Assembly: GCA_021604645.1 (NCBI GenBank)
Contig: BQJJ01000014.1
Span: forward strand, 1-64,000
Direction of reading: 5' to 3'
Source of the DNA: Methyloligella sp.
GTDB lineage: Bacteria; Pseudomonadota; Alphaproteobacteria; Rhizobiales; HXMU1428-3
DNA: 64,000 bases
How positions within the stretch are numbered: the first letter of the stretch is position 1; each line of letters begins with the position of its first letter. Below the pieces are notes generated by a model. It saw only the letters and a list, made by a program, of their open reading frames with translations, was not told the origin of the DNA and did not search any database. A program made the translations under genes and the position numbers. This document shows positions 21,989-63,183 of this stretch, piece by piece.

Positions 21989-22005
21989 CACCTCATAGTT
22001 GACAA

Positions 22006-22130
22006 CACGAAGAAGGAGTTCAGCCCACTTCGGGCTGAGGGACATGGCGAAGCGCTAGCGTAGCCCGGTGCCTAGCACCGCCCCTCGGAGGCCCAAGCGC
22101 CATAAGCGCTTGGAATAGCCGTGAGAGAAA
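22006..22130 (+). repeat. long structured element LE-2
   Basis: cacgaagaaggagtTCAGCCCacttcGGGCTGA...CGGTGcctagCACCG...CCAAGCGCcataaGCGCTTGG-aatagccgtgagaga; abuts secB stop. Confidence 0.92.
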
Positions 22131-22622
22131 TCAAGCATTACCCGTTTGAGCTTCAGTTTGCTTGCGCTGTTTATAAAGGCCAGCAAAATCAATCGGATCA
22201 AGTAGTAGCGGAGGAAAACCACCTTCATGCGTCATATCAGAAACAATGCGGCGCAAGAATGGGAAAAGAATAGATGGACAGTTGATCAGCAATAAAGGCT
22301 CAAGTGCGTCAGCTGGAATATTTTTTACGTTAAAAGCACCCGCATAAACTGCTTCTACAACATAAATGGCTCCATCATCATTAGTGGCGTTGCCTTTAAG
22401 TTCGATAGCGCTTTCATAAACATCTTCGTCAAGCTTCTTAACACTAACATTCAAATCAATTTGAAGGTTCGGGTTTTCACCAGGAGCTTTTAAAGACTGA
22501 GGAGCTTTTGGGCTTTCAAATGAGAAATCTTTTAAATATTGTCCAAGAACTTGAATACTTGGCTGTGCGGCACCGCCGTCAGCACCCGCACCATTTTGTG
22601 AACCATTTTGTTCATCAGCCAT
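22131..22622 (-). CDS. secB: protein-export chaperone SecB
   Basis: QYLKDFSFESPKAP; CPSILFPFLRRIVSDMT. Confidence 0.96.
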   Translation of the reverse strand: MADEQNGSQNGAGADGGAAQPSIQVLGQYLKDFSFESPKAPQSLKAPGENPNLQIDLNVSVKKLDEDVYESAIELKGNATNDDGAIYVVEAVYAGAFNVKNIPADALEPLLLINCPSILFPFLRRIVSDMTHEGGFPPLLLDPIDFAGLYKQRKQTEAQTGNA

Positions 22623-45340: not shown

Positions 45341-45385
45341 TGGTGATATTTTTTATGAATTCATAAACACACCTAAAATTCTTCT

Positions 45386-45503
45386 ATCCGAAGAAGGAAG
45401 TGCTCTACTTCAGAGCACGAACATGGCGCCATAGGCGTCCGGTGCTAAGCACCGCACCTCGTAGGCCCGCTGCATAGCAGCGGAATAGCCGTGAGAGAGA
45501 AAA
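45386..45503 (+). repeat. long structured element LE-10
   Basis: GTGCTCTacttcAGAGCAC; GGCGCCataGGCGTC; CCGCTGCataGCAGCGG. Confidence 0.92.
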
Positions 45504-47368: not shown

Positions 47369-47494
47369 GAAAAAACGATAAACTATACGCATTTGTAATG
47401 TTTCTACAGGCTTAAGCCCAATTTTAGCCCTTGTTTGGTCCCGTTTTCACCAAGTCATCATGGTTTTCTTAAACAAGTAAATTATTTGTGAGAA

Positions 47495-47530
47495 TGCGGT
47501 TGCTAGTGGGCAACCTGAAGCATAAAAGGG
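47495..47530 (+). repeat. SE
   Basis: gcgGTTGCtagtggGCAACctgaagcataaaa. Confidence 0.8.
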
Positions 47531-50401: not shown

Positions 50402-50432
50402 CAAGCGGACAATTGAAAGTTCAATTTTTCCA

Positions 50433-50555
50433 TACGAAGAAGGAGCTCATCCCCTTTCGGGATGAGGGACATGGCGAAGCGCCAGCGCAGCCCGGCGTAA
50501 GCGCCGCACCTCGTAGGCCTATGAGCTTTAGCTCATAGAATAGCCGTGAGAGAGA
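50433..50555 (+). repeat. long structured element LE-12
   Basis: CTCATCCCctttcGGGATGAG; CGGCGtaaGCGCCG; CTATGAGCtttaGCTCATAG. Confidence 0.92.
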
Positions 50556-50588
50556 TAGAGAAAAAACAACCCTAAAACTCTCACTCTC

Positions 50589-59444: not shown

Positions 59445-59535
59445 TCGCGAGAGAATACAACTTCAATTTATCCGTACGAAGAAAGAGCCCTGCCTTTTCG
59501 GCAGGGGGACATGACACCATGGGTGTCCGGTGCAC

Positions 59536-59578
59536 CAGAGCAGCCCGGAAGGAGTGAAGCGAGTACGGATAAGCTGAT
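59536..59578 (+). repeat. third hairpin module, copy 1
   Basis: gagcagcccggaaggagtgaagcgagtacggataagctgatcg. Confidence 0.75.
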
Positions 59579-59611
59579 CGAAAAGAATGCCTCCCTTCGT
59601 AGGCAGATAGT

Positions 59612-59686
59612 GCGGATGCGTAGTGGGCATCTGAAGCACAGCGTAGGTAAACAGTGCGGATGCGTTGTGGGCATCTGAAGCACAGC
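59612..59686 (+). repeat. two tandem SE copies of the GATGC/GCATC subtype
   Basis: gcgGATGCgtagtggGCATCtgaagcacagc and gcgGATGCgttgtggGCATCtgaagcacagc. Confidence 0.85.
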
Positions 59687-60001
59687 AAAAAGCCTCGAGA
59701 GAGAAAGAGAAAACCACAAACATTCGCCTTTCGTTGAATGTTGCATCACCTTCAAACATCGGCATGCGAAAAACTCATTTTTCACAAGAGGCTCCCAAAG
59801 ATAATCTGAAAAGTAAGACTAATCTCTACTATCAAAATAAACGAAACAAAGATAAACATGCATTAAATATACATGTATATGTTTTGTCTTGTGACATTTG
59901 TCTGAAAAATAAAAAAACAAAAATTGGACGAATCTACAAGTGTTATTTAATGCAAAAATATGCAATATTTACAAAAATTAGGTAATCTAGGGAAGAAAAC
60001 T

Positions 60002-62648: not shown

Positions 62649-62808
62649 GAACTCAAACTCTTTTTTACTTAGCTTTGAAAACAAGAATAACACAGCTCAA
62701 TGGGTATCTGCATCTCGCTTTTAGGAAAATTCAACAAACCTCTTGCCATACGAAGAAGGAGTGACACCTCTTTGGTGTCAGGACATGGCAGCTTAGCTGC
62801 CCGGTGCA

Positions 62809-62852
62809 CAAGATCAGCCCGAACGGAGCGAATCGAGTACGGATAAGCTGAT
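62809..62852 (+). repeat. third hairpin module, copy 2
   Basis: GATCAGCccgaacggagcgaatcgagtacggataaGCTGATCg. Confidence 0.75.
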
Positions 62853-62895
62853 CGCAAGAAAAACACCGCCCCTCGGAGGCCTAAGCACTTCAAGC

Positions 62896-62935
62896 AGCGC
62901 GGTTGCTGGTGGGCAACCTGAAGCGCCACTAAAAA
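62896..62935 (+). repeat. SE nested inside LE-14
   Basis: agcgcggttgctggtgggcaacctgaagcgccactaaaaag. Confidence 0.9.
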
Positions 62936-62962
62936 GAAATAGCCGTCAGAGATACAAAAAGG

Positions 62963-62990
62963 CCGTGTAATCTTTTGAGGGATTACACGG
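62963..62990. terminator. hairpin, terminator-like
   Basis: CCGTGTAATC-ttttgagg-GATTACACGG perfect 10-bp stem. Confidence 0.6.
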
Positions 62991-63183
62991 CAAGGTTTTG
63001 CTGCTTCATAGATGAGGAGAGAGCGAGTTTTAAATCCTATCCGTTCAATTGGGGAAAGGTCAGATAAAAAATAGTCACCCCTCAAAGGAGATAATGCTTA
63101 ATCAGAGGAGGTCGATTAAATGCATTGACCAGACAATGCCAAAGAAATATAATTTAGTAAAATGAATTATTAAAAAGGTAATA

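Follow-up and report, generated by a model that had tools for sequence, protein, structure and literature searches.

The region analysed is a window of 64,000 nt in which ~14 copies of a long repeated element (LE, ~125 nt each) are present. LE-14, in the gap between alkB and a LysR gene, combines three families of non-coding palindromic repeats, LE itself and the shorter M and SE (Table 1). The first-pass annotation had described a nested arrangement of these three at 62749-62955, and both its sequence and its coordinates are confirmed. Copy numbers in this genome (G000) exclude chance, with at least 150 LE copies found by a covariance model, 48 copies of the M pattern (≤3 mismatches) against 0 for the reversed control, and 201 copies of one SE subtype, again against 0 in the control.

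Within LE-14, the third module had been placed between the CGGTG and CACCG arms of hairpin 3, and the M unit is indeed found there. The proposal that the last hairpin is occupied by an SE is correct as to the SE, which is complete, but not as to the hairpin, in which the 5' arm TAAGCACTT is followed by AGC and the SE and then directly by AAATAGCC. As the 3' arm is gone, the SE replaces hairpin 4. The same armless form, in a TTYAGCAGCGCGG...CTAAAAAG.AATAGCC context, recurs in many other LEs. In the host fold, hairpins 1 and 2 are intact, M lies within the hairpin-3 arms and hairpin 4 is not preserved; the whole of LE-14 folds only weakly better than its shuffles (z -1.7). M sits at the same place in LE-13, 3.3 kb away.

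Immediately after LE-14, a hairpin GCCGTGTAATC...GATTACACGGC is observed at 62962-62995, which is kept in three congeners (G002, G003 and G006) and also, in altered form, in G007, which has no LE there. This hairpin is native sequence beside the LE site.

Table 1. Repeat features of the window, all on the plus strand; comparisons are with the sister species G002.
Feature	Position	Strand	Basis or locus
LE-14, composite long element	62750..62952	+	blocks and covariance-model match 62746-62957, 70.2 bits
LE-14 blocks	62750-62761, 62781-62789, 62869-62879, 62937-62952	+	sequence
LE-14 hairpin 1, TGACACC/GGTGTCA, intact, insert-free	62762..62780	+	sequence, fold
LE-14 hairpin 2, GGCAGC/GCTGCC, intact, insert-free	62787..62801	+	sequence, fold
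LE-14 hairpin 3, arms CGGTG/CACCG around M unit	62802..62868	+	sequence; other M-bearing LEs arranged alike
M unit with usual flanks, ACAA-[GATCAGC...GCTGATC, 62812-62853]-GCAAGAAAAA	62808..62863	+	sequence, 48 genome copies, contexts
Hairpin 4 remnant, 5' arm and loop, 3' arm missing	62880..62895	+	sequence; context common to other LEs
Complete SE, GCGC-[GGTTGC..GCAACC]-TGAA-GCGC and CACTAAAAA tail	62896..62935	+	sequence
LE-14 3' block GAAATAGCCGTCAGAGA	62936..62952	+	sequence
LE-13, M in hairpin 3, two SEs instead of hairpin 4	59475..59710	+	sequence, ortholog comparison
Plain LE; G002 ortholog bears M in hairpin 3	22003..22133	+	locus A
LE; G002 ortholog with inverted SE in hairpin-1 loop	40107..40235	+	locus C
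LE, hairpin 1 wholly exchanged, remainder nearly identical	45384..45503	+	locus F
Solo SE, 34 nt, missing from otherwise identical G002 site, no target duplication	47493..47526 (C14:47492)	+	locus D
LE, compensatory pair change in hairpin 1, CTCATCCC/GGGATGAG against CTCAGCCC/GGGCTGAG in G002	50430..50558	+	locus H

The LE, M and SE families

The layout of LE, 5' to 3', is ACGAAGAAGGAG, hairpin 1, GGACATGG, hairpin 2, hairpin 3, CCCCTCGGAGG, hairpin 4 and AATAGCCGTGAGAGA. In an alignment of ten plain copies, both-sided changes occur at 15 of the 30 pairs of the consensus fold, covariation which exceeds that of all 500 shuffles and of all slid versions. No Rfam 15 family scores above threshold with LE, and a known structured RNA family is rejected on this basis. 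By covariance model, LE is present throughout the genus, no genome lacking it, and 50 of the order's 298 genomes have it; the parts that are still recognisable outside the family are hairpin 3, the GGCC-hairpin-4 part and AATAGCCGTGAG. Among the congeners, copy numbers are high in G000, G002, G003 and G006, while G001, G004 and G005 are low in SE. The strict LE pattern matches two Hyphomicrobiales MAGs only among GTDB genomes. Plain LE has no match in a plasmid collection, and spread by phage is rejected since the exact pattern has no match in viral contigs.

Head-to-tail tandem LEs with differing hairpins and short spacers are also detected in this genome, at C6:37233-37493, C15:43738-43991, C2:412873-413165 and C3:104619-104880. 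At three sites where this genome has a single LE (LE-13, LE-14 and C14:65.4 kb), the sister species has tandem LEs.

In the contexts examined M is nearly always found in hairpin 3 with constant flanks, ACAA and GCAAGAAAA, an exception being a free tandem pair at C20:4224-4333. In one LE, at C15:87103, hairpin 3 and its M are inverted relative to the remaining element. SE is an imperfect palindrome of about 34-40 nt, high in copy number and intergenic, corresponding in size and abundance to REP sequences. SE (GYGC outer stem, TGAA bulge), M (GATCAGC, ATAA) and the 3' hairpin of LE (GGC, AATA) have one design in common, a two-tier hairpin that is bulged by 4 nt on its 3' side and bears an A-rich tail. 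Pairing of the SE outer stem is 0.68, compared with a shuffled mean of 0.56 and maximum of 0.59.

Orthologous sites in congeners

Differences between this genome and that of its sister species (G002, ~92% identity) were taken from a filtered indel scan of an ortholog comparison spanning about 390 kb. In the sister species, whose AlkB is 94% identical, the alkB-LysR gap contains LE-14 in the same composite form and, after it, another LE that is plain. The gap contains a plain LE with other hairpins in G003, a decayed LE end and two SEs in G006, and no LE in the more distant G007. Comparison of this locus, which had been suggested as a check, thus yields an LE free of the inserts in G003 but the same composite in G002, so that LE-14 is in part an ancestral variant. 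Since the composite occurs in G002 too, it is an inherited variant which predates the split of the two species. The ortholog of LE-13 in G002 has one SE, plus an extra plain LE 5' of it.

The reading of the inserts as insertion events, which is not supported for the inherited LE-14 copy itself, is supported elsewhere by orthologous LEs with and without an SE. On C11, near-identical orthologous LEs differ by an SE replacing the hairpin-4 loop, and SEs in the hairpin-1 loop distinguish the two species at two loci, one of these SEs being inverted. The solo SE at C14:47492, the one clean solo site, shows no target duplication, as is typical of insertion by IS200/IS605 elements. The fold of this site is better than that of its shuffles and, in this single case, the SE lies where an internal loop has its edge. 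Target-site duplications, which the first-pass annotation had proposed to look for, were not seen. The elements do not fit a MITE of a DNA transposon, which has terminal inverted repeats and a target-site duplication, as the 5' and 3' ends of LE are not inverted repeats and no duplication is present at the clean SE site.

M is present in one species only at several LEs, and the other hairpins there usually differ too. As the M site and its flanks are near-constant and the neighbouring hairpins usually change where M does, copying or conversion of M-bearing LEs appears as likely as repeated insertion of M. SE nesting and mobility are supported by orthologous empty sites, gain and loss being unpolarised by an outgroup at most of them, and those of M less firmly; insertion is partly demonstrated. 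Exchanged hairpins, compensatory change and clean SE differences (Table 1, loci D, F and H) together suggest that recombination among copies and insertion both act.

These data bear on an explanation in which the entry of M and SE into LE was an old event that happened only once or a few times, current variety resulting from gene conversion and unequal exchange with little present movement. Its basis is that M has a single site, that hairpin-4 SEs share a single context, that orthologous LEs are mosaic, their hairpins exchanged and their 3' ends kept identical, and that tandem LEs found in one species have end repeats which would permit deletion. However, the solo SE at C14:47492 and the hairpin-4 SE on C11 differ cleanly, with no flanking homology to mediate exchange, and SEs are found in several different loops, once inverted. 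We consider recombination as the sole process to be rather unlikely, although it ranks as the strongest competitor of movement.

Insertion sites and strand orientation

Nesting is general, SEs being found in each of the four LE hairpins, in M and within other SEs. Among 19 SEs flanked by LE on both sides, which are not all independent events, 13 lie in hairpin loops, compared with about 21% expected from the loop share of plain-LE positions (p 1.4e-5); under cruder trimming the count is 29 of 50. Of the remaining six, two interrupt the CCCCTCGGAGG mini-hairpin and the other four belong to the armless form of hairpin 4, and many hairpin-4 SEs accompany loss of an arm. An SE within an SE is in the loop in five of six matches, the sixth being a tandem pair. 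The earlier proposal that insertions fall in loops consequently holds for most SEs inside LE and other SEs, but not for the SE of LE-14, nor for solo SEs: a general test detects no enclosing palindromes around SEs outside LE, and is also negative when the SEs within LE and those adjoining it are pooled. Loop preference is thus observed only inside other elements and loop targeting is not general, solo SEs having no enclosing palindrome.

Orientation is nearly invariant within a contig, 108 of 110 LEs and 160 of 187 SEs lying on its major strand. With neighbouring genes called as simple open reading frames, LEs hold their strand whether the two flanking genes are opposed to it (19) or co-oriented with it (25), and they are common between convergent genes (34). 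A cis-regulatory or 3'-UTR element is rejected because LE orientation is independent of the neighbouring genes. In nearly all contigs, LEs on the plus strand go with a negative third-codon skew difference and LEs on the minus strand with a positive one, the relationship being strong in C2, C4 and C11, weak in C1 and C6 and near zero in C9. This suggests that the LE strand is the lagging strand, as judged from a base skew which is weak in C1, C6 and C9.

In our reading of the LE match lists, matches also run one way per contig in G032, from another family. Relatives of ~110 nt in G018 (L213, L217), from another family of the order, are set as inverted pairs, unlike the one-strand layout in this genus.

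Both loop use and pairing could alternatively reflect survival: insertion would be random, but LE would have a function that depends on its structure (as an RNA, for example), and only inserts that do not disturb the host fold would persist. In favour of such a filter, pairing of LE hairpins is kept through compensatory and whole-hairpin changes, between orthologs too, and few LEs (3 of 81) lie between divergent genes. Conversely, many SE-bearing LEs have lost an arm, LE presence varies among close species, LE orientation ignores adjacent genes and SEs inserted in SEs use loops as well, making selection of this kind an improbable cause of the pattern.

Candidate mobilising enzymes

A search of the genome for a RAYT or IS200-like transposase had been proposed as a check. 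Y1_Tnp (PF01797) is not found in G001-G007, including the sister species at 99% completeness, and occurs in G000 only. RAYT is accordingly rejected as the mobiliser, being absent in seven congeners while the G000 copies are flanked by unrelated repeats. These copies, L001 and L002 (C1:11499-11819 and C1:15047-15370), lie between TTACGGTGACAGT-type repeats and are an element of their own, recent and with no relation to LE or SE.

Some group II introns retropose at the replication fork, and the elements could likewise be structured RNAs, A-rich at the 3' end, of which a reverse transcriptase makes DNA copies there. The RNA-like covariation, the A-rich 3' tails and the strand bias would all be accounted for. 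However, RVT_1 is not found in the sister species (99% complete) nor in four other congeners, the only RVT_1 of G000 is on a short, foreign-looking contig, and the clean solo SE site has no target duplication. Reverse transcriptase is rejected as the mobiliser in view of its absence in G002, and templating by RNA is, in our estimation, highly improbable. The gene in G000 (L212) is of group II intron type and is located on C26, a short contig on which reading frames are dense and overlap on both strands; its composition looks foreign to this genome, and it is possibly contamination. Among the candidates searched, Y1 transposase and reverse transcriptase, no mobilising enzyme for LE, M or SE was identified.

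Comparison with known systems and proposed mechanism

How short palindromic repeats devoid of genes spread is an old question, usually answered by RAYT transposases. LE, M and SE resemble the REP/BIME sequences mobilised by TnpA-REP (RAYT) in being short, intergenic, high-copy imperfect palindromes with a bulged hairpin and no target duplication seen. TnpA-REP enzymes read irregular hairpins (PMC8266576), and REP dimers inside palindromes are known in A. variabilis, T. roseum and H. neapolitanus (PMC3733652). In REPs the hairpin is preceded on its 5' side, at a distance of 0-2 nt, by the tetranucleotide GTAG, GGAG or GTGG (PMC6006769). Such a tag is absent beside the SE 5' end, where the flank consensus is A-G-Y-G-C into the stem, GTGG being found in the loop only. 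In contrast to REPs, whose Y1 transposase gene is flanked by the repeats, PF01797 is not found in the congeners G001-G007. Orientation does not alternate as in BIMEs, LEs occupying one strand per contig and tandem LEs being head to tail, and three families are nested in one another here, unlike REP/BIME.

In single-strand transposition, IS200/IS605 elements are recognised by their hairpins and the process is coupled to the template of the lagging strand (PMC6006769). A comparable process would explain both the strand bias and the use of loops. As regards a bias of insertion to that template, the strand bias observed here is strong, and which strand it concerns is read from a skew that is weak in some contigs. 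The present elements differ, however, in that no cognate Y1 transposase acting on the element ends was found and in that, at 34-125 nt, LE, M and SE are very short and have no coding capacity. The three families thus probably work like REP or IS200-type transposition, yet lack features that define membership in either group.

Within the same order, the Rhizobium-specific intergenic mosaic elements (RIME) and the AB and C palindromes of Sinorhizobium are, compared by description, likewise mosaic intergenic palindromic repeats, of unknown function (PMC2573895); unlike for LE, M and SE, we found no report of loop nesting or strand bias for them. Repetitive hairpin-forming elements in the mitochondria of sponges and fungi are small, mobile-looking and often tandem or double (PMC2800124), but differ in genome and sequence, and insertion into the loops of other families is not described in that paper. 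In the citing account (PMC3116915), cyanobacterial small dispersed repeats (Elhai et al. 2008) are similarly very small mobile repeats lacking genes of their own. Added to these precedents are recursive nesting of three families, a near-absolute strand bias and no recognisable transposase where sites differ.

Strand bias, loop preference, lack of target duplication and the shared bulged hairpin lead us to infer single-strand insertion at the fork. LE, M and SE would move as single-stranded DNA exposed at the replication fork, where hairpins would present unpaired loops as targets, and one trans-acting enzyme, not recognisable as a Y1 transposase, would read the shared two-tier hairpin and its 4-nt 3' bulge. 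Recombination between LE copies would reshuffle them, also spreading M- and SE-bearing variants. In its general form, in which the elements are REP-like and an enzyme not recognisable as a Y1 transposase spreads them by way of single-stranded fork DNA, with hairpins also exchanged among LE copies, this interpretation is one for which we see an even chance. The fuller version, in which LE, M and SE are strand-locked mobile hairpins of common two-tier bulged design, moved as single strands at the fork by an enzyme neither Y1 transposase nor reverse transcriptase and stacked recursively through the use of other hairpins' loops as sites, is advanced more tentatively, as somewhat less likely than not. 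Weighing against movement at the fork are the failure of the searches to find a mobilising enzyme, the solo SEs unenclosed by palindromes, the hairpin-4 arm losses, the mostly unpolarised differences, the lagging-strand assignment from a skew that is weak in C1, C6 and C9, and the M differences, which may be conversion.

A missing enzyme is indicated, as the repeats differ between close species while a Y1 transposase is detectable neither in G002 nor in six other congeners. This lineage points to that enzyme and makes the replication-fork model directly testable.

Another repeat, TAGAGCA...TGCTC(TAG), accounts for three insertions of ~101-102 nt in G002 which are absent from G000 (G002 C1:~124090, C1:~249460 and C2:~302950). 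Each adjoins CTAG/TAG, which may be a short target duplication, and we take the repeat to be a separate MITE-like family common in Rhizobiales.
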